DNA of 29,860 nucleotides, taken from positions 1-29,860 of the IMG/VR virus record IMGVR_UViG_3300031566_000257, one strand, 5' to 3'. The stretch's first letter is position 1; every line of letters begins with the position of its first letter. The position numbers and the translations under genes are program-made. The notes under the pieces were generated by a model. The model was given only the letters and a program-made list of their open reading frames with translations. It was not told where the DNA came from and ran no database searches. This document shows positions 8,616 through 26,217 of this stretch, in pieces. This DNA is from a virus.

Positions 8616-9724
8616 GATAGGTATCCATTCAGGGTTGCGAATGAAGCCGTGTTGTCCGTTATCGGAATCTCCGTCGGGTCGGCGTCCGAATTAGGAATCC
8701 ACGAACCCACGGTATGCTTGCCGACTACCGTTGTCCCGTCGGCCTCGTACACGATTTCCCGCCGTATGTCGTACTTTTGGAGTTGCGCGAGCGTCTTGGC
8801 GTCCCACCCGGCAGGGTCATAAGCCAACCCGATGATGCAGTCAAACAGGGTGCTTTGGCCGCGCTTCCGTTGCCGCATACTGAACTTGTCAAACCAGAGT
8901 GTTCCAGCAGCCGCGTTGACGATGTTTGGGCAACCGTTGGAGTTGACTGCCCCTACCAGCCCCTTGACCAGAGCCAGATTGGAAGAAGTCAAGACGGCCC
9001 GGATGCGCATGTCGGCCCGCACCAGCGGCCACCCATTGTTCCCCGCAACCTTCACCCAACACTTGCGAACGCTTCCGTCCCAATAGATTTCGTCAATCCG
9101 CTTTGTCGTGCCGGGAACCACTTCCCTGTTCCACATCATCACGGCGGACGCATCGGCTTCGAGGATGCCCTTGTTGACGTAGATGACTTCTCCGATGGGC
9201 GCGTAGGTGTCATAGGCCGCCGTGATTTTGGCGATACCGACGCGCCACCGCTTCTCAATCTGCTTCTCGCGTAGCAGAGCGTACTGCCAGTTCCCAGACG
9301 CCGCCATCGGAGTCAGTTCGGGCAACGAAGCCTCTGCGATGGATTCGGCGTCTGCCTCCGCTACAAGGAAAACCCGGATGCCCATGTAACGTCCACGCCG
9401 TCCGGTTTCCGGTCTTCGAGCAACCTCATACAAGCCGCTGATGCCGCTCGTGAATGGAACCTTCGGCTTGGCGTACTGGCATCGAGTGGTGTAGGCTCCC
9501 TGGTCGGGGGTTCTGTGTGACGTGCCGCTCCCCGTCTCGATGCAGATATAGCCCCATGGCGCGGTCTGCGCCGCCAGGTAGCGGTCGCCGGGGTAGGCAC
9601 TTCCGAGGGCGGGAACCTGCGCCGCGCGCTTGGCAATCGGCAGGTTGTAGTCGCAAGTGAGGGTATAATCCTCAAGCGTCTCCGAGTATACCACATTTTC
9701 TGGGACAAGTTTTAGCGTGGCCAT
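8612..9724 (-). CDS. Virion structural protein, unknown family
   Basis: 370 aa, beginning MATLKLVPENVVYSETLEDY, start overlapping the stop of the upstream HNH gene as TAATG. The protein is a mixed alpha/beta, aromatic-rich globular chain without signal peptide, membrane segment or recognisable active site. It lies downstream of the tail tubular protein, where podoviruses encode tail tubular B or other tail components. It is shorter than T7 gp12 (794 aa) and I see no convincing similarity to that family, so I leave it as a structural protein of unknown role. Confidence 0.55.
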   Translation of the reverse strand: MATLKLVPENVVYSETLEDYTLTCDYNLPIAKRAAQVPALGSAYPGDRYLAAQTAPWGYICIETGSGTSHRTPDQGAYTTRCQYAKPKVPFTSGISGLYEVARRPETGRRGRYMGIRVFLVAEADAESIAEASLPELTPMAASGNWQYALLREKQIEKRWRVGIAKITAAYDTYAPIGEVIYVNKGILEADASAVMMWNREVVPGTTKRIDEIYWDGSVRKCWVKVAGNNGWPLVRADMRIRAVLTSSNLALVKGLVGAVNSNGCPNIVNAAAGTLWFDKFSMRQRKRGQSTLFDCIIGLAYDPAGWDAKTLAQLQKYDIRREIVYEADGTTVVGKHTVGSWIPNSDADPTEIPITDNTASFATLNGYLS

Positions 9725-10350
9725 TACTTTTGCCCTTCAAGTTCTGCAATGCTTTTCTTGATGGCCATCGCCTGAAACACCGCAGCCCAGTGGCTCCGAT
9801 GAAAATTACTTCTCGTGTGGCAGAGAACACAAAGCGTAACCAGGTTCACGGGGTCGTTGTCCCTTTTGTTGTAGTTGATATGATGGACAGACAACAGCCG
9901 CTCGCATTCCGTTTGCGGCACACCACACACCTGGCATTTATAATCATCCCGACGACGGACCTCCTCGCGCAGTTCCTCGGTCCATTCCCATCCATAGAGT
10001 TCGCAAGAGACGCCTCCGCGCCAGTTTGGATTCTTGCTTCCCATGCGCGCGAGTCGGTGTTTCCCCAGTTGTTCCTCCGACATCTTCTTGCCTTTGCGTG
10101 AAGCACTTGACTTTGCCCGCGTTTCCGGGCTACGCTTGCAACCCAAAGCCTGTTTCTTCCCCCCTTCGACCAAGTATTTTATTTGAGCAGCGGATAGATT
10201 GGCTCGCCACTCCGCCGAACGCGGAGGGCGTTTCTTGCCCCTGCGTGCTGCACCCTGTTTGGCGCGAGTTTCATCTGTGGGTTTTTGGCCCATGCGTGCA
10301 GCACTTATTTTCGCTCGCGACTCGGCGGCATGATGAGTTCCAATTTTCAT
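9724..10350 (-). CDS. HNH homing-type endonuclease with NUMOD-like array
   Basis: 208 aa, start coupled to the tail tubular gene (ATGA at 10347-10350). Residues 1-105 are short Lys/Arg-rich helical modules (SRAKISAARMGQKPTDETR, SPETRAKSSASRKGKKMS) typical of NUMOD3-like DNA-binding units. Then SKNPNWRGGVS and the HNH domain: EELREEVRRRDDYKCQVCGVPQTEC, SVHHINYNK, DPVNLVTLCVLCHTRSN. Zinc ligands are CxxC at CQVC and CVLC; catalytic residues are the His pair, the Asn of VNL and the final His of LCH. It should nick or cut DNA and promote its own spread. It sits between two structural genes without visibly breaking either. One of five HNH paralogs in the window. Confidence 0.92.
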   Translation of the reverse strand: MKIGTHHAAESRAKISAARMGQKPTDETRAKQGAARRGKKRPPRSAEWRANLSAAQIKYLVEGGKKQALGCKRSPETRAKSSASRKGKKMSEEQLGKHRLARMGSKNPNWRGGVSCELYGWEWTEELREEVRRRDDYKCQVCGVPQTECERLLSVHHINYNKRDNDPVNLVTLCVLCHTRSNFHRSHWAAVFQAMAIKKSIAELEGQK

Positions 10351-12355: not shown

Positions 12356-13276
12356 TTACACAGCCGTCCCGCACTCGTGAACCTTGGAACCTTCCGTCCG
12401 AACCGCACCGCCGTCGATGGTGGCGTAGATGCCCGTCGCGTTTTTCTTGTCGGGCCGACGGTCCACGCTGACGCTCAAATCCTGAATGAACGCCAGACCC
12501 AGGCCGCCTTCGCTCCAAGCAAACGTCCTGTTGCTGACGGCCGTTGAATCCTTCAGCAACCGCGTGGTCACGATGAAATCGAACCCGGCGAAGTGGCCGA
12601 TGGCTCCCGTATCCAAACGCTTGGTCGTGAAGTCGCTGCTGGTGATTTCCAGGATGTCCATCATAGCCCGCTTGTCTTTGGGCGAGATGGCCCAATACTT
12701 GCGGTCGGTTTCCGGCACGTTGGCGTTGTCGAAAACCTGCGCCATGGCCAGAATCTTCGCCAGTTCCATCGTGACGGGGCTAGTGGTCATATCAACCGCC
12801 GTACCGAGGGTGGAAAGCACCCCGCCCGTGGCGGCGGTGACGCCGACCGACTCGGCTGCGAAGGTCACGGTCGTTCCGCCCGCCTTGCCGACCTTGGCAT
12901 CGGCGATAACGGCGGCAATGAGGAGATCATCAATCCATCGACCGAACGAACTTCCGATTGACTGGACGATGACGTTCTGGGGGTCCACGACCATCCGGTC
13001 CGTGTCCGGCTTGTCCAACAGGTAGCCGTCCTCGAAGGGCAACGGAATCACCTGCCGACGAAGCAGAACAGCCTCGCGCGACGGGGTATCCCCGTGGCGG
13101 TCGGCGTTCTGGGTCGGTGCGTCGAGGGCTTCAATCTGGTGGAAATACGCTTCCTCGGCGCTCGCAACGCGCTTGAAAGACACGCGGCTGCGAAGCAAGG
13201 AAGTCTTCTGCTGGGACAGGAGGTCGATGTACGGCTCGAACTCCTTCCCGTACAACTGGTCGCCAGTGTAACTCAT
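12356..13276 (-). CDS. Major capsid protein
   Basis: 306 aa, starting at the ATG at 13276 behind AAGGAGACCGGCA. It follows portal, small head genes and scaffold in the canonical order. Sequence features fit a phage coat protein: an N-terminal arm (YGKEFEPYIDLLSQQKTSLL), a central region with MVVDPQNVIVQSIGSSFGRWIDDLLIAAVI, alanine/glycine/threonine-rich segments, and RKYWAISPKDKRAMMDILEI with HFAGFDFIVTTRL, the pattern seen in HK97-fold podovirus coat proteins. It forms the icosahedral shell around the scaffold. It has the longest leader in the structural operon, with strong secondary structure, suggesting dedicated expression control. Confidence 0.82.
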   Translation of the reverse strand: MSYTGDQLYGKEFEPYIDLLSQQKTSLLRSRVSFKRVASAEEAYFHQIEALDAPTQNADRHGDTPSREAVLLRRQVIPLPFEDGYLLDKPDTDRMVVDPQNVIVQSIGSSFGRWIDDLLIAAVIADAKVGKAGGTTVTFAAESVGVTAATGGVLSTLGTAVDMTTSPVTMELAKILAMAQVFDNANVPETDRKYWAISPKDKRAMMDILEITSSDFTTKRLDTGAIGHFAGFDFIVTTRLLKDSTAVSNRTFAWSEGGLGLAFIQDLSVSVDRRPDKKNATGIYATIDGGAVRTEGSKVHECGTAV

Positions 13277-16522: not shown

Positions 16523-16725
16523 CAGCGGCTCCAATCTATCGCGGCGAAGTTCCTACGAAATCTCCGCCGGCCTTCCGGTGTCATGGTCGCAACATACGCC
16601 ACGCCTTTCCCGTTCCGCCCCATCTGCTCCCTGGGCACATGCTCCCCGTCCTTCCCGCACGCACCGGCCCGATGCGCTCGCACTATCAGTTCCTTCACAG
16701 ACCTAACATGCGCGTTATCGCTCAA
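16522..16725 (-). CDS. Small basic protein, 67 aa
   Basis: Starts at 16725 overlapping the HNH stop (ATGA) and ends overlapping the portal start (TGATG). Basic and His-containing, with GKDGEHVPREQMGRNGKGVA and a tail PEGRRRFRRNFAAIDW. Full coupling on both sides supports translation. It may have lain directly after the terminase before the HNH gene arrived. Family not recognised. Confidence 0.6.
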   Translation of the reverse strand: MSDNAHVRSVKELIVRAHRAGACGKDGEHVPREQMGRNGKGVAYVATMTPEGRRRFRRNFAAIDWSR

Positions 16726-17444
16726 AAGAACAACCCCTGGCGCGCTCGTTCCAGCGCCTTGGTCTGGAAAAACATAGTCCAGTATGGCCGGTTAGTGTTC
16801 ACCTTTGTGTTGCAAGACCTGCAGAGGGCCGTCAAGTTTACGGGGTCACTGTTTTTCTTGTCGTAGTCCACGTGGTGCACATCCAGTTTCTGTTTGCACT
16901 CCACTTGCGGCACACCACATAACTGGCATTTGTGTCCGTCTCGCCGACGTACTTCCTCTTTTAGTTCCGCGTTCCATTCCCAGCCATAGGGTTCACGACT
17001 GATACCGCCGAGCCAGTGCGGACTCTTATCACCTGACCTCTCCATACACATCTTTTCTATCGTCTCTGGCGTATGCCGCCTTCCCATGTTCGCAGCGTGC
17101 ATCGCCTTCAAGTTCGCTAACTGCTTCGGCGAACGCGGATAGTCGAGTTTTCTGCCAACATTCATGGACTGCGTCGCCTTCAGTGCCACCATTTGTTTCG
17201 GCGAACGCGGTAGCGCATGTAACGCCTTCACGTGCGCTATTTGTTTCGGCGAACGCGGTTGTTCCCACGTCGTGGCTAGTATGACCTTCGCCCGTGCTAT
17301 CTGCTTTGGCGAACGTGGTAGCGCGTGCAATTCTGCCAATTGTGCCGCTTCCTTCGGCGTACGTTTTCTGCCTGTATTTGCGACGTGCAGGGCCTCCAGT
17401 TGTGCTATCTGTTTCGGAGAACATCCACGACCCGCTTTTCTCAT
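16722..17444 (-). CDS. HNH endonuclease with expanded RSPKQ repeat array
   Basis: 240 aa, inserted between large terminase and portal. Residues 9-135 are about seven imperfect modules of 16-24 residues built on (R)SPKQIA..KALHALP, a NUMOD-like DNA-binding array; the count is higher than in the paralogs. Residues 139-230 form the shared domain: GGISREPYGWEW, ELKEEVRRRDGHKCQLCGVPQ, LDVHH, DPVNLTALCRSCN. The last catalytic position is Asn (CRSCN) where the four paralogs have His (CH), making an HNN form. HNN variants can be active in this superfamily, so loss of activity is not certain. Coupled to the 67-aa gene by ATGA. Confidence 0.9.
   Translation of the reverse strand: MRKAGRGCSPKQIAQLEALHVANTGRKRTPKEAAQLAELHALPRSPKQIARAKVILATTWEQPRSPKQIAHVKALHALPRSPKQMVALKATQSMNVGRKLDYPRSPKQLANLKAMHAANMGRRHTPETIEKMCMERSGDKSPHWLGGISREPYGWEWNAELKEEVRRRDGHKCQLCGVPQVECKQKLDVHHVDYDKKNSDPVNLTALCRSCNTKVNTNRPYWTMFFQTKALERARQGLFF
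17125..17427 (-). repeat. In-gene direct repeats in 12-nt steps
   Basis: The core ttcggcgaacgcgg (plus strand) occurs exactly at 17125, 17197 and 17245, with variants at 17305, 17353 and 17413. Successive spacings are 72, 48, 60, 48 and 60 nt, all multiples of 12, so modules differ by whole four-codon steps. Each core encodes PRSPK in the HNH gene's DNA-binding array. Confidence 0.85.
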
Positions 17445-21391: not shown

Positions 21392-21481
21392 CTACCACCT
21401 GTTGTGCCTCACTCCCGCCCAAAGGCTCAATCCGCGTTCCTGCACCGGAATCGCCACAACTAACGCAACATAATCAAACAT
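21392..21481 (-). CDS. Possible 29-aa ORF after HNH gene
   Basis: The HNH stop and this start overlap as TAATG. The peptide MFDYVALVVAIPVQERGLSL then WAGVRHNRW has a short hydrophobic start. The rest of the gap (21276-21391) has only an 18-codon GTG reading behind AGGAGG at about 21370 and no obvious structure. It may be residue of a gene disrupted by nuclease insertion. Confidence 0.25.
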   Translation of the reverse strand: MFDYVALVVAIPVQERGLSLWAGVRHNRW

Positions 21482-22083
21482 TATCGGTCCATCTTGCTGA
21501 ACATGCCTGCCCAGTACTCCCGGTTTGAGTTAGTCCTTCCGTGGCAGGAAGGGCAGAGCGACACGAGGTTCACTGGGTCCGAGTTCGCCTTGTCGTAGTC
21601 AACGTGATGCACTTCCAGCGCCCTCTTGCACTCGCACTGGGAAACCCCGCACAACTGGCAACGATGGCCGTCGCGCCTACGAACCTCCGCCTTGAGTTCG
21701 TCGTTGAACTTCCACGAATACCCGACGGCGCTTATGCCTCCCTGCCACCGAGGATTCTTCGGACCTGCCTGGATGCCCTTGTGGGCAGCAGACATCTTCG
21801 CCAGCGTCGCCGGCGAACGCTTCTTGCCACGATTGGCAAGGCCACGGCTCAGGCAGCCTTCGGGCCTGTGGGCAGCATAGTAGGCACGGTCGTAGGCACT
21901 GCACTTTACTTTGTTGGCGGCCTGGTAGGCACGGCTGGAGGCGCGGTGCTTTTCCTTGTTAGCAGCCCAATAAGCACGAGCCCGAGCGCGGTTTTTCTCA
22001 AGGTCCCCTTCCTTTTTCGTGGCGCGATAGGCGCGCAGCCAATCGCATTCTTCCCACTCGCGCTTTTGCTCCAGACTCATCAC
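21481..22083 (-). CDS. HNH endonuclease with Tyr/Ala-rich N-terminal repeats
   Basis: Start is GTG at 22083 or ATG at 22080, behind AAGGAGG. The N-terminal ~75 residues differ from the other paralogs: repeated units RAYxAANKxKxxA (RARAYWAANKEKHRASSRAY, QAANKVKCSAYDRAYYAAH). A RGKKRSPATLAKMSAAHKG module follows and then the shared domain: KNPRWQGGIS, ELKAEVRRRDGHRCQLCGVSQ, LEVHHVDYDKANSDPVNL, LCPSCHGRTN. All three HNH residues and four zinc cysteines are present. It lies 3 nt downstream of the small terminase gene. Confidence 0.9.
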   Translation of the reverse strand: MMSLEQKREWEECDWLRAYRATKKEGDLEKNRARARAYWAANKEKHRASSRAYQAANKVKCSAYDRAYYAAHRPEGCLSRGLANRGKKRSPATLAKMSAAHKGIQAGPKNPRWQGGISAVGYSWKFNDELKAEVRRRDGHRCQLCGVSQCECKRALEVHHVDYDKANSDPVNLVSLCPSCHGRTNSNREYWAGMFSKMDR

Positions 22084-23000: not shown

Positions 23001-23029
23001 TTGACTTGCTGGCGTTGCGCGTCGATAAT
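23001..23029 (+). promoter_or_regulatory. Sigma-70 type promoter for plus-strand island
   Basis: TTGACT (23001-23006) and GATAAT (23024-23029) are separated by exactly 17 bp, five of six matches each to the consensus. Transcription would start near 23035-23037, precisely where the first long helix of the RNA leader begins. GTCGATAA (23021-23028) also resembles a sigma-28 -10 element but no matching -35 is present. Confidence 0.7.
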
Positions 23030-23034
23030 ACCAG

Positions 23035-23128
23035 TGGAGATAGCGATGCACCCGAACACACAGATTGGCGTTGCGGTTCCGGCTGGTGCAGCGAGTTCCT
23101 CTCTATCGCTATCTCCAACACCAGCCGG
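23035..23128 (+). ncRNA. 5'-terminal RNA with two interleaved helices over the RBS
   Basis: Helix A pairs tggagatagcgat (23035-23047) with atcgctatctcca (23105-23117), 13 bp plus a G-U. Helix B pairs ccggctggtg (23079-23088) with caccagccgg (23119-23128), 10 bp. The order A, B, A', B' makes them interleaved, so they form a pseudoknot or compete. Helix A covers the Shine-Dalgarno and start codon of the HNH gene and begins at the predicted transcription start. The same layout occurs before the GIY-YIG gene. Confidence 0.6.
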
Positions 23129-23687
23129 GCCGCGCGCCAAGAAACACCTGAGCAGAGCACACCGCTCTAAAATCGGCAAGTCCATGATGGGCAACAAGAA
23201 CGCCGTCAACCATAGGGGAGGATATAGGCGTACGCCCGCAACACGTGCCAAGATAAGCAAGGGTTGTGCTGGCAAGGGCATCGGCGACAAAAATCCCATG
23301 AGGCGACCCGATGTCCGCGCCAAGAACGCCATCGCGCACATAGGAATACAGGCGGGTGACAAGAATCCTAATTGGCTTGGTGGTATCTCGCGCGAACCCT
23401 ACGCTTGGACCTTCAATGCGGAGTTGAAAGAGGAAGTGCGCCGCAGGGACGGCCACAAGTGCCAGTTGTGCGGCATACCGCAGGCGAAACTCAAACGGGC
23501 GCTGGATGTTCACCATAGCAACTACGACAAGAAGGACATCGATCCTGATAATCTGGTGTCCCTGTGCCGCCCTTGCCACATGCGAACGAACACAAAGCGG
23601 GCGTATTGGAAGGCGTTTTTCAAGCAATGCGGCAATGGGGCCGCGCCTTTTGGAGGCCGATACCATGACTGGACAAGAACTGTATGA
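23046..23687 (+). CDS. HNH endonuclease on the plus strand
   Basis: 213 aa from the ATG at 23046 (GGAG upstream, within helix A). The first ~32 residues (MHPNTQIGVAVPAGAASSSL...) are unlike the paralogs and are encoded by the structured RNA. Homology with the 24074-24712 paralog begins at RSKIGKSMMGNKNA. Then come RTPATRAKISKGCAG and GDKNPMRRPDVRAKNAIAH modules and the shared domain: KNPNWLGGISREPYAW, ELKEEVRRRDGHKCQLCGIPQ, LDVHHSNYDKKDIDPDNL, LCRPCHMRTN with intact HNH residues. It is one of two genes on this strand, under its own promoter, and overlaps the next gene by 23 nt. Confidence 0.88.
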   Translation: MHPNTQIGVAVPAGAASSSLSLSPTPAGPRAKKHLSRAHRSKIGKSMMGNKNAVNHRGGYRRTPATRAKISKGCAGKGIGDKNPMRRPDVRAKNAIAHIGIQAGDKNPNWLGGISREPYAWTFNAELKEEVRRRDGHKCQLCGIPQAKLKRALDVHHSNYDKKDIDPDNLVSLCRPCHMRTNTKRAYWKAFFKQCGNGAAPFGGRYHDWTRTV

Positions 23688-24073: not shown

Positions 24074-24712
24074 TTAGACTTGAAAATACTCTTTCCAAAA
24101 AGCACGCCGAAAATTAGTCCTTTGATGACAGGAACGACACAAAGCGACAAGATTCAACGGGTCGTTGTCTTTCTTGTCGTAATTGGTGTGATGCACATCG
24201 AGGGCCTTCTTGCACTCGCACTGGGGAACCCCGCACAATTGGCAGCGATAGCCGTCGCGTCTGCGAACTTCCTCCTTCAATTCCGGCGAAAAGTCCCATC
24301 CATACGGTTCCCGCGATATGCCGCCCAGCCAAAGAGGATGCTTGCTTCCGACGCGCTTGCCCTTCAATGCCTCGCCTACTTTTTTGCAAGTCTCTGGCGA
24401 GGACTTACGTCCTTGATGCCAAGCGGCGTTTTTTGCCACCGCTTCCGGGCGCTTCATGGGATTTTTATCACCAAGCCAGGCGGCTCGCAACCGCTTACGC
24501 TCTTTTGGTGAGCGCTTGCAGCCCTTGGCGTTTTTATTGCCTCGAAGAGCCTTTGATTTTTTTAAGCATGTTTCAGCAGATTGTTTTTTGCCAACCTTGG
24601 CGGCACATGTTTCAGCCGAGTGTTTATAGCCTTTTGCGTTTTGGTTGCCCATGAGTGAGGCAGATATGTTCGCACAATGTTCTGGTGTTGGCTTATAAGT
24701 GCCTTGCGGCAT
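24074..24712 (-). CDS. HNH endonuclease with NUMOD3-like array
   Basis: 212 aa with a strong Shine-Dalgarno (AAGGAGG), 12 nt after the replication gene. Residues 8-115 are repeated KxSxETCxxK modules (GNQNAKGYKHSAETCAAKVG, GNKNAKGCKRSPKERKRLRA, RKSSPETCKKVGEALKGK). The shared domain follows: HPLWLGGISREPYGWDF, ELKEEVRRRDGYRCQLCGVPQ, LDVHHTNYDKKDNDPLNL, LCRSCHQRTN, ending FWKEYFQV. All catalytic and zinc residues are present. It closes the right-hand minus-strand block, facing the end of the plus-strand island. Confidence 0.92.
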   Translation of the reverse strand: MPQGTYKPTPEHCANISASLMGNQNAKGYKHSAETCAAKVGKKQSAETCLKKSKALRGNKNAKGCKRSPKERKRLRAAWLGDKNPMKRPEAVAKNAAWHQGRKSSPETCKKVGEALKGKRVGSKHPLWLGGISREPYGWDFSPELKEEVRRRDGYRCQLCGVPQCECKKALDVHHTNYDKKDNDPLNLVALCRSCHQRTNFRRAFWKEYFQV

Positions 24713-24724
24713 CCGTTTTCCTCC

Positions 24725-25672
24725 TTAATCGACAGATTCTAGTCCAACTGCCTTAAGTAGGTTAGCCTCCCGCCTCGCCCATGTCAAGACTTTTTCACTT
24801 CTCGCCCTGCCAGTGTCCCAAGAGGGTAAACCAACCTGCCGTAGATAATCCCTTGCTTCGAGAACATCTTTCAAGATCGCCTCAATGGTATTGCGTTTGG
24901 GCTCCAGGCGCGCCGCCGCCCAAGATTCGGTAAGGCGAACCATCGGAACCTCGGTTGCATCATCCCATCGTCCTTGGTTGAGCCACGTCGCGGGGTGTGG
25001 GATATACTGGCCGCCGTCCTTCGTCCACGCATCGGACGCCTTCTGCGCTTCAAGGGCAACAAGGATAACTTCGAGGGCGGGCCTTTCTTTGGATTTAGCC
25101 CAAGCCCTTCGGGCCTCTATTTTTGCCACCTTTCTTGGATAGGCAGCCCAGAACTCGTCGAACCCAGGCGGTGAAACCGCCGGAGTCTTTTTCTTACCCT
25201 TCTTACCTTGATTACAATGATTATCCTTATTGTTTGTGTCCTGCGGCTGTCCTACGGCTGTCCTACGGCTGTCCTGCGGCTGTCCTTCTGCCTGTCCACC
25301 CCCATCAGCCAAACACTGATATACTTGCCAGTTTACTATAGTTACGATGCTTCCGTGGCTGTCCTCTTTGATGTCCAGATTTCCGAGGTTTTTCAATTTT
25401 GCCATTCGATTCCGCACAGAACTTGGTTTCATGCCTAAATCCTGCGCCGCCGAAAGGCGTCCGAAAAGGAACTGTCCGGGCAGCAACTTTAGTTGTGTTT
25501 TGTGTGTTCCAACGGTCACGGAAATCCACCGCTCTTTCCACGAGGCCCGCATGAGACACCAGCACCAGATATACCAAAGGTGCGGGTCTTGCCAAACGCG
25601 GCTGTCTAGGGATTTCCGGTGAAGAAAAACATAGCCCATTCCGTTGTTTGGGGAGATTTCGGCGTCAGTCAT
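24725..25672 (-). CDS. Phage replication-initiation-like protein
   Basis: 315 aa from the ATG at 25672, overlapping the GIY-YIG stop by 8 nt. Residues 8-110 resemble the N-terminal winged-helix part of phage replisome organisers: GYVFLHRKSLDSRVWQDPHL, then QLKLLPGQFLFGRLSAAQDL and KPSSVRNRMAKLKNLGNLDI. A Gln/Asp/Lys-rich linker (about 125-165) contains an 11-nt tandem repeat. The C-terminus has PGFDEFWAAYPRKVAKIEAR and YIPHPATWLNQGRWDDA, a module common in phage proteins that load or bind the replicative helicase (DnaT/O-like). No polymerase or helicase is visible here; it would work with host or out-of-window replication factors. Confidence 0.78.
   Translation of the reverse strand: MTDAEISPNNGMGYVFLHRKSLDSRVWQDPHLWYIWCWCLMRASWKERWISVTVGTHKTQLKLLPGQFLFGRLSAAQDLGMKPSSVRNRMAKLKNLGNLDIKEDSHGSIVTIVNWQVYQCLADGGGQAEGQPQDSRRTAVGQPQDTNNKDNHCNQGKKGKKKTPAVSPPGFDEFWAAYPRKVAKIEARRAWAKSKERPALEVILVALEAQKASDAWTKDGGQYIPHPATWLNQGRWDDATEVPMVRLTESWAAARLEPKRNTIEAILKDVLEARDYLRQVGLPSWDTGRARSEKVLTWARREANLLKAVGLESVD
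25237..25286 (-). repeat. 11-nt tandem repeat inside the replication gene
   Basis: Four contiguous copies of tgtcc(t)(g/a)cggc-type units, tgtcctgcggc or tgtcctacggc, at 25237, 25248, 25259 and 25270, plus a six-nt partial copy. Since 11 is not a multiple of 3, each copy is read in a different frame, and gain or loss of one unit would shift the frame of the C-terminal half. Confidence 0.9.
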
Positions 25673-25997
25673 GGGATGCCCCCCGCTTGCCGCGCACATT
25701 ATGGCGCGGAGCAAGTCGGCGCAGCAGCCTTGCTTCGAGCATCAGCCATTCCCCGTATTTTTTTGTCGCACGAACCTTGACTGTAACTTTTGCAGCCGAA
25801 CCCCACGGGGTTTGGGTCCACGCGCTGTAACGGCAACTGTCAAATCGGTGGCCGGATAGTCGGTTTCGAACCTGGTAAGACGAGCCAACGTAGACAAGGT
25901 CGTTTCCGAAATAAACGGCGTAACACCCCGGTCCCTTTGGAACCCTGCCTATTTCCTCTGGCACAACATACTTCTTTGACCACCGAGATTGTTTCAT
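25665..25997 (-). CDS. GIY-YIG endonuclease domain protein
   Basis: 110 aa from the ATG at 25997 (GGAG 7 nt upstream); the longer reading into the leader is not supported. GIY-YIG signature in order: GPGCYAVYF (the GIY half), DLVYVGSS (the YIG half, here YVG), RNRLSGHRF with the catalytic Arg, then EWLMLEARLLRRLAPRHNV with the conserved Glu and Asn. It is a stand-alone catalytic domain without an obvious DNA-binding extension, as in small phage GIY-YIG proteins. It could be a homing or repair/defence nuclease. It is coupled by ATGA to a 34-aa leader ORF that lies in a structured RNA. Confidence 0.85.
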   Translation of the reverse strand: MKQSRWSKKYVVPEEIGRVPKGPGCYAVYFGNDLVYVGSSYQVRNRLSGHRFDSCRYSAWTQTPWGSAAKVTVKVRATKKYGEWLMLEARLLRRLAPRHNVRGKRGASHD

Positions 25998-26098
25998 GGC
26001 TTGCTCCAGGAAGCAGGGAAGCGGCCCCTGAAGGAACGGGTAGCGATGGAGAGCAGAGGACTCTCGCCCGTCCAGCAAAGGCCGCTTCTCGGTTTCAT
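25994..26098 (-). CDS. 34-aa leader ORF before GIY-YIG gene
   Basis: ATG at 26098 with GGAGG seven nt upstream; product MKPRSGLCWTGESPLLSIAT then RSFRGRFPASWSKP. Its TGA overlaps the GIY-YIG ATG (ATGA), so ribosomes finishing it could restart on the nuclease gene. The codons cover both downstream helix arms of the RNA element, so translating it would open the structure. The sequence CCATGAAAC occurs at both this start and the nuclease start (plus gtttcatgg at 25991 and 26092). The peptide is Arg/Ser-rich; a regulatory leader role is inferred. Confidence 0.5.
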   Translation of the reverse strand: MKPRSGLCWTGESPLLSIATRSFRGRFPASWSKP

Positions 26099-26118
26099 GG
26101 TTAGCCCTCCATCGCTAC
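26018..26118 (-). ncRNA. Second interleaved-helix RNA leader
   Basis: Helix A: ctccatcgctac (26107-26118) with gtagcgatggag (26040-26051), 12 perfect bp. Helix B: ggccgcttc (26080-26088) with gaagcggcc (26018-26026), 9 bp. In transcript order A, B, A', B', again interleaved. The 5' arm of A contains the Shine-Dalgarno of the 34-aa ORF. A -10-like TATAAG (26127-26122, minus strand) would start RNA at the beginning of helix A, but the -35 is poor. A small GGAC/GTCC hairpin lies between B and A'. The rest of the 26119-26217 gap holds only a doubtful 38-codon TTG reading. Confidence 0.55.
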
Positions 26119-26217
26119 TATCTTATACGGCATTTTCTCGCCGCAACAGCAAAGATTCTCCAAAACCGATATTGCGAGTTTGGCCCGCCACGCCCCTGTA
26201 GCGGCACGACTGCGCAA

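Follow-up and report, generated by a model that had tools for sequence, protein, structure and literature searches.

Structure of the Leader Element Upstream of the GIY-YIG Gene

An element of two interleaved helices (E2, 26006-26118, minus strand) was found upstream of a small GIY-YIG-like nuclease gene in the window, that is, the whole stretch of 29,860 nucleotides of viral DNA analysed (IMG/VR record IMGVR_UViG_3300031566_000257). Based on features read from the sequence (the helices and their layout, recurrence, a strand-specific pairing bias, the predicted promoter position and the leader frames), we suggest that this element probably acts in cis as a translational gate at the 5′ end of the mRNA, open on the nascent RNA and closed thereafter. 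Such a gate would probably limit the amount of encoded protein made. More tentatively, E2 may represent a portable class of phage leader RNAs defined by topology and not by sequence, in which a promoter, a 5′-terminal helix that conceals the ribosome landing site of a leader frame, an interleaved helix and a translationally coupled gene form a unit, present several times per genome, for the autonomous and self-limiting expression of nucleases and replication initiators. The features of E2 and of the genes behind it are as follows.

26120..26127, minus strand: -10-like box, sequence TATAAGAT; helix A begins just downstream
26104..26118, minus strand: helix A, 5′ strand; 12 perfect pairs at 26107-26118, extension to 26104
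26106-26110, minus strand: leader Shine-Dalgarno GGAGG, inside helix A
25994..26098, minus strand: leader ORF of 34 codons, MKPRSGLCWTGESPLLSIATRSFRGRFPASWSKP and stop; ATG at 26098, stop TGA overlapping the ATG of the next gene (ATGA)
26071..26100, minus strand: helix B, 5′ strand; core 26080-26088
26040..26054, minus strand: helix A′, 3′ strand; 12-bp core 26040-26051
26006..26035, minus strand: helix B′, 3′ strand; core 26018-26026, ending at the Shine-Dalgarno of the GIY-YIG gene
25665..25997, minus strand: small GIY-YIG-like nuclease gene; ATG at 25997, own GGAG, PF01541 and PHROG endonuclease matches
24725..25672, minus strand: replication initiation/helicase-loader protein gene; start overlapping the end of the GIY-YIG gene, phrog_270 (E 2e-27)

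The 12-bp and 9-bp helices that a sequence-only reading had described here in the order A-B-A′-B′ proved exact and interleaved. Helix A/A′ (26118-26107/26051-26040) consists of 12 Watson-Crick pairs and reaches 15 pairs when one G·U is included, and the 9 pairs of B/B′ (26088-26080/26026-26018) lie within a longer irregular helix (26100-26071/26035-26006). The -10-like box that the same reading placed shortly before the A arm is present as well. The A arm does hold a ribosome-binding site, as had been claimed, but the Shine-Dalgarno at 26110-26106 serves the leader frame (26098-25994) and not the GIY-YIG gene. Support for the GIY-YIG assignment itself is weak, since the PF01541 match (E 0.0018) falls short of the Pfam cut-off and the PHROG endonuclease match has E 0.00075, and no sequence relatives of the protein were found by search. 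Because a leader in the related phage L092 directly precedes an initiator of the same PHROG as the gene at 24725..25672, the GIY-YIG gene probably sits within a replication-operon leader unit.

A Second Element in the Window and Chance Expectation

The same interleaved layout had also been noted at 23035-23128, and it was confirmed there, on the plus strand, before an HNH nuclease gene (E1).

23001..23029, plus strand: promoter TTGACT-17-GATAAT, consensus match 10/12
23035..23047, plus strand: helix A, 5′ strand; includes GGAG (23036-23039) as Shine-Dalgarno and extends two bases into the start codon at 23046
23065..23088, plus strand: helix B, 5′ strand; core 23079-23088
23105..23117, plus strand: helix A, 3′ strand
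23119..23140, plus strand: helix B, 3′ strand; core 23119-23128, one base past A′
23046..23687, plus strand: HNH nuclease gene (PF01844); the leader is an in-frame N-terminal fusion

The E1 helices (23035-23128) are of 13 bp and 10 bp, in the A-B-A′-B′ order of E2, and helix A begins five bases past the -10. In second-order Markov shuffles of the window, interleaved 12/9 pairs were expected 0.007 times per window, versus two seen. For perfect repeats of 12 bp or longer spanning no more than 120 nt, 0.24 were expected and three were seen; the rough estimate in the sequence-only reading had been fewer than one perfect 12-bp repeat within ~100 nt per window. The motif AGCGAT, reported as common to both A arms, is indeed shared, and TAGCGAT is confined within the window to the A and A′ arms of E1 and E2.

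The third 12-bp repeat (13277-13288/13349-13360, minus strand) is a simple hairpin over the Shine-Dalgarno of a 306-aa gene (12356-13276), which is the putative major capsid gene judging by its genomic position. This hairpin has a z of -5.6, and its GGTCTCC/GGAGACC arms are kept in the relatives L029, L030 and L031. The window also contains five related HNH genes (9724-10350, 16722-17444, 21481-22083, 23046-23687 and 24074-24712), three of which start close to the end of the upstream gene or overlap it. Among the five, 23046-23687 alone has the interleaved leader, which is absent before the other four.

Recurrence in Related Phages

HNH relatives in two other IMG/VR phages (L011 and L014) are preceded by A-B-A′-B′ repeats whose sequences are unrelated but whose leader frames are designed alike. 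The large terminase is 66-79% identical among these phages and the window phage. Since the arms have little sequence in common, a structural descriptor was used in place of a covariance model. For the family records it specified a Shine-Dalgarno in A, a start codon after it and an interleaved B, and the family was widened via terminase alignments and the replication initiator. As a result, 15 elements were found in seven terminase-related phages (E1 and E2; G1a and G1b; G2a-G2f; L092a and L092b; L140; L147; L184). A 16th element, L245, lies upstream of a replication gene, through which its record, outside the terminase set, was reached. The check proposed with the sequence-only reading was a scan of phages for further copies upstream of nuclease genes; further copies do exist, in L011, L014 and the terminase-related phages and, beside a replication gene, in L245.

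At a score of at least 60, the first ten family records gave 10 hits, or 52 hits/Mb, versus 2.75/Mb in the comparison set of other virus records (727 kb) and 1.95/Mb in shuffles; a few of the 10 are duplicates at one site or lie on the reverse strand. In 293 kb of early regions from terminase relatives at a greater distance, no element scored at least 56. Nothing further that was convincing came from the HNH relatives found in bacterial genomes, and the phage records searched contained no sequence relatives of the E2 region. Two candidates were set aside as elements, namely L062 (10/7 bp, long span) and L087 (repeat-like). E2 and L014 have in common a core, GGCG-(CG)-AGAGTCCT, between B and A′. 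When searched in the virus collection as a fixed motif (GGCG-0..3-AGAGTCCT-0..6-CTCTCC), it gave ten loci, with the layout only in the record of L014 itself, and was not retained.

Two genome positions of the elements recur. The promoter opposite the small terminase gene has a leader in six phages (E1 in the window, G1a, G2f with G2e beside it, L092b, L140 and L147), and 0.75% of random 1.1-kb regions score at least 55. In L141 and more distant relatives a leader opposite the small terminase is absent, and the distribution is patchy. The replication operon carries a leader in G2c, L092a, L184 and L245, and E2 of the window precedes the GIY-YIG gene and the initiator. Further copies stand before HNH-type genes (G1b, G2a, G2b and G2d). 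In L049 (12583-14073, minus strand), no stop separates the G2b HNH frame from that of a second protein, so that the joint frame has 496 aa, which suggests that the HNH was inserted just before or into the gene of this second protein.

The products behind the 16 elements are eight nucleases (E1, E2, G1b, G2a, G2b, G2d, G2f and L092b), four replication initiators and four unknown proteins. The initiators were recognized by PHROGs (G2c, L092a and L184) or by similarity to L092 (L245). The leader meets the initiator with an ATGA overlap in L092a and G2c, with an overlap in L184 and across a 4-nt gap in L245.

Evidence for Action at the RNA Level

With G·U and A·C given equal weight in the scoring, the 15 elements contained 465 Watson-Crick positions, 38 of G·U, 8 of A·C and 20 of other kinds. 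Although the descriptor used for discovery had a preference for G·U, the seven elements from perfect-repeat scans alone still gave 17 G·U versus 4 A·C. Since a G·U on this strand is an A·C on the other, and G·U is in excess, the strand appears to act as RNA, and the 38:8 ratio points to selection on this RNA strand. The A arms have a mean identity of 34%, three or four types of pair occur at most paired positions, and the arms differ even between elements of one phage.

These counts bear on whether the repeats belong to the DNA, as a repressor operator pair or a recombination or homing site, or are chance inverted repeats. TAGCGAT lies near the promoters of both E1 and E2, and half of the genes are nucleases, as a DNA site might have it; the G·U excess, however, is not expected from a DNA palindrome, and neither the divergence of arms within one phage nor a frequency far above that of shuffles favours this explanation, which we consider scarcely credible. 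Very unlikely, too, is a binding site for a protein or ligand, through which, for example, the encoded nuclease or initiator would be autogenously repressed in the manner of T4 gp32. There are precedents for pseudoknot operators in phages (PMC3014915), and the core common to L014 and E2 would suit one, but no core is common to all elements, the A arms are dissimilar, and the products vary while a common ligand would require a common sequence.

At Rfam 15 gathering thresholds, no match was found in the window or at the elements in seven loci (one tRNA lay elsewhere), and a permissive Rfam search of E2 and L014 gave sub-threshold matches only, mostly to microRNA families. Group I introns, omega-RNA/HEARO and other known RNAs were ruled out by these searches. 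HDV-like ribozymes have the order P1-P2-P1′-P2′, with a P1 of about 7 bp, P4 and a catalytic core. The strand order of the phage elements is the same, but helix A is 11-16 bp long, A′ and B′ are 0-14 nt apart and there is no Rfam ribozyme match, so this candidate was rejected. The sequence-only reading had supposed an undescribed RNA class attached to mobile nuclease genes. Its first part is supported, as the element is recurrent, appears from its pairing bias to act at the RNA level and has no Rfam match, but the attachment is not, with only 8 of the 16 elements preceding nucleases.

Promoters and Leader Frames

Seven of the 15 elements have a -10-like hexamer whose end lies 3-7 nt ahead of A (background 4.2%, p 1e-6), and a -10 together with a -35 of at least 4/6 was found in 5 of the 15 (background 0.5%, p 9e-9). 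Because A starts 4-6 nt past the -10 box in those seven, helix A would be located at the 5′ end of the predicted mRNA. The leader frames comprise 34-43 codons with their Shine-Dalgarno in helix A. Their stop usually overlaps the gene start (ATGA in E2, G1b, G2a, G2c, L092a and L140), or the leader is fused in frame and forms part of the protein (six elements). The frame is open over 34 codons in all 16 elements versus 50% of random windows, a result somewhat favoured by the post hoc choice of the leader start among candidates; ATGA starts bias the neighbouring frames. Helix B starts near the leader start codon in several elements, and B′ ends at or just before the Shine-Dalgarno of the gene itself in most elements with a separate leader.

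The latter arrangement, together with the location of A at the predicted 5′ end in 7 of 15 and the adjacency of A′ and B′, might also reflect protection of the 5′ end. The fold would bury the mRNA 5′ end and give a long-lived transcript, the gene would be translated from the Shine-Dalgarno that it has further downstream, and concealment of the leader site would be secondary. We regard this as rather improbable: protection needs no leader frame with a Shine-Dalgarno, 34-43 codons and an ATGA overlap, and where the leader lies within the protein, as in six elements, the hidden site is that of the gene.

Proposed Translational Gate

We suggest the following course of events for the gate. Transcription would start at helix A. 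Within this helix lies the Shine-Dalgarno for a leader frame of 34-43 codons coupled to the main gene, and in many cases the helix extends as far as the start codon of that frame. Only during the first ~70 nt would A be free and a ribosome able to load. Once A′ emerges, A/A′ would shut the ribosome landing site, and with the emergence of B′, B/B′ would shut the leader frame. If A/A′ is kept while B/B′ forms, the result would resemble an H-type pseudoknot, with A′ next to B′ and the 5′ end of the mRNA at the point where the two meet. Loading would then stop unless ribosomes already keep the RNA open. Expression would be handed to the gene by termination-reinitiation (ATGA) or by in-frame fusion. 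Consequently, the output would track transcription, limit itself and stay low, as would be fitting for nucleases and replication initiators. The coexistence of the helices, the equation of closed with off, the coupling to the gene and the kinetic window are parts of this scheme that we infer.

In nested folding of growing transcripts, the Shine-Dalgarno was in most cases accessible in part until ~70 nt, and its accessibility usually fell close to zero at 80-90 nt as A′ appears; L147 and L245 were weaker cases. L245 also fits worse in having a 102-nt A-A′ span and a weak B. In full-length nested folds the Shine-Dalgarno was partly free again in most elements because B/B′ outcompeted A/A′; in most, it re-opened at 100-110 nt. 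Duplex energies favour helix B over helix A in 14 of the 16 elements. According to a distance estimate, the longest B helices (27-32 bp), which have short A-B linkers, cannot form fully alongside A, whereas inner B and A can.

Because full-length nested folds re-open A, and a B of 27-32 bp would be incomplete while A is closed, the leading rival is a sequential switch. Here A/A′ would hide the Shine-Dalgarno first and the stronger B/B′ would then pull A/A′ apart, so that the element is a timer, or a gate whose closure lasts only as long as B′ is occupied by a ribosome at the leader stop. The strength of B, the re-opening and the length of the longest B helices all speak for it. However, the two helices have no common strand, unlike in usual attenuators; A′ and B′ are adjacent or 1-14 nt apart, which suits stacking; and a B near the leader start codon, as in several elements, would still block initiation. 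On this evidence we consider the sequential switch unlikely and keep to the gate that closes and stays closed, for which the coexistence of A/A′ with the longest B helices is the main doubt.

Comparison with Known Systems

Initiator leaders are known from the I-complex plasmids, in which an antisense RNA controls the system and a pseudoknot activates translation. Translation of the leader peptide is required for initiator expression in these plasmids (repB/repA; repZ of ColIb-P9), with a pseudoknot switch reported for repZ (PMC10286972, citing Asano and Mizobuchi 1998). The phage elements resemble them in that the leader frame ends at the start of a replication initiator (L092a, G2c, L184 and L245). 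They differ in that helix A covers the Shine-Dalgarno of the leader itself and in that half of the elements precede nucleases.

In I-TevI, Aeh1 mobE and T4 segB, a ribosome-binding site held in an RNA helix lowers translation of the phage nuclease; in I-TevI, the early and middle transcripts are silent, and the late promoter lies within the 5′ part of the structure (PMC3014915). The E1 helix, covering the ribosome-binding site of the fused HNH gene itself, resembles these T4-type homing endonuclease leaders, whereas the E2 helix covers the site of the leader frame and not that of the GIY-YIG gene. Unlike in I-TevI, the predicted promoter lies upstream of A (seven elements) and both arms are in the predicted transcript. 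While the T4-type leaders are sequestering structures or hairpins, the phage elements have an interleaved second helix and a leader frame.

The mRNA leader of T4 gene 32 has a pseudoknot with two coaxial helices, which lies upstream of the ribosome-binding site, is bound by gp32 and controls translation of this replication protein (PMC3014915). The interleaved complementary arms and the G·U bias of the elements described here, some of them before replication genes, may indicate a pseudoknot too, with the longest B helices seemingly limited by steric constraints; a leader frame is not involved in gene 32. Type I toxin mRNAs offer a functional parallel, an intramolecular fold blocking ribosome access: their own fold blocks ribosomes on the nascent mRNA, in some cases via the binding site of an upstream frame, and they require processing or antitoxin RNA and encode small toxins (PMC11228461).

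A description of such a leader was not found in the open-access literature (subscription papers and preprints were outside the scope of the search), and, as far as that literature shows, none of these known systems unites a 5′-terminal helix, an interleaved helix and a leader frame that is coupled to genes of various kinds. The elements would connect the control of free-standing homing nucleases with that of phage replication initiators, and they resemble plasmid copy-number leaders. As the layout is kept while nearly every base changes, profile methods based on similarity would tend to miss such a cis-regulatory RNA. The descriptor (an interleaved repeat, a Shine-Dalgarno in the first arm, a promoter just before it and a coupled leader frame) can be applied to any phage collection.

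Similar arrangements were observed in three further places. In L109, at 1994 on the minus strand of record G020, which is without a terminase match, an A-B-A′-B′ repeat with the promoter TTGACG-17-TATGAT precedes a gene start, and the leader frame is short or absent. In L282, at 839, the promoter TTGACA-17-TATTAT stands directly before an interleaved 16/8-bp pair with adjacent A′ and B′; this pair has no leader frame and precedes a 360-aa gene starting at 997. Finally, an AT-rich phage record has the same topology (11 bp and 13 bp) at L020 4073-4191 (= L107 3688), where an unknown frame of 125 aa follows.
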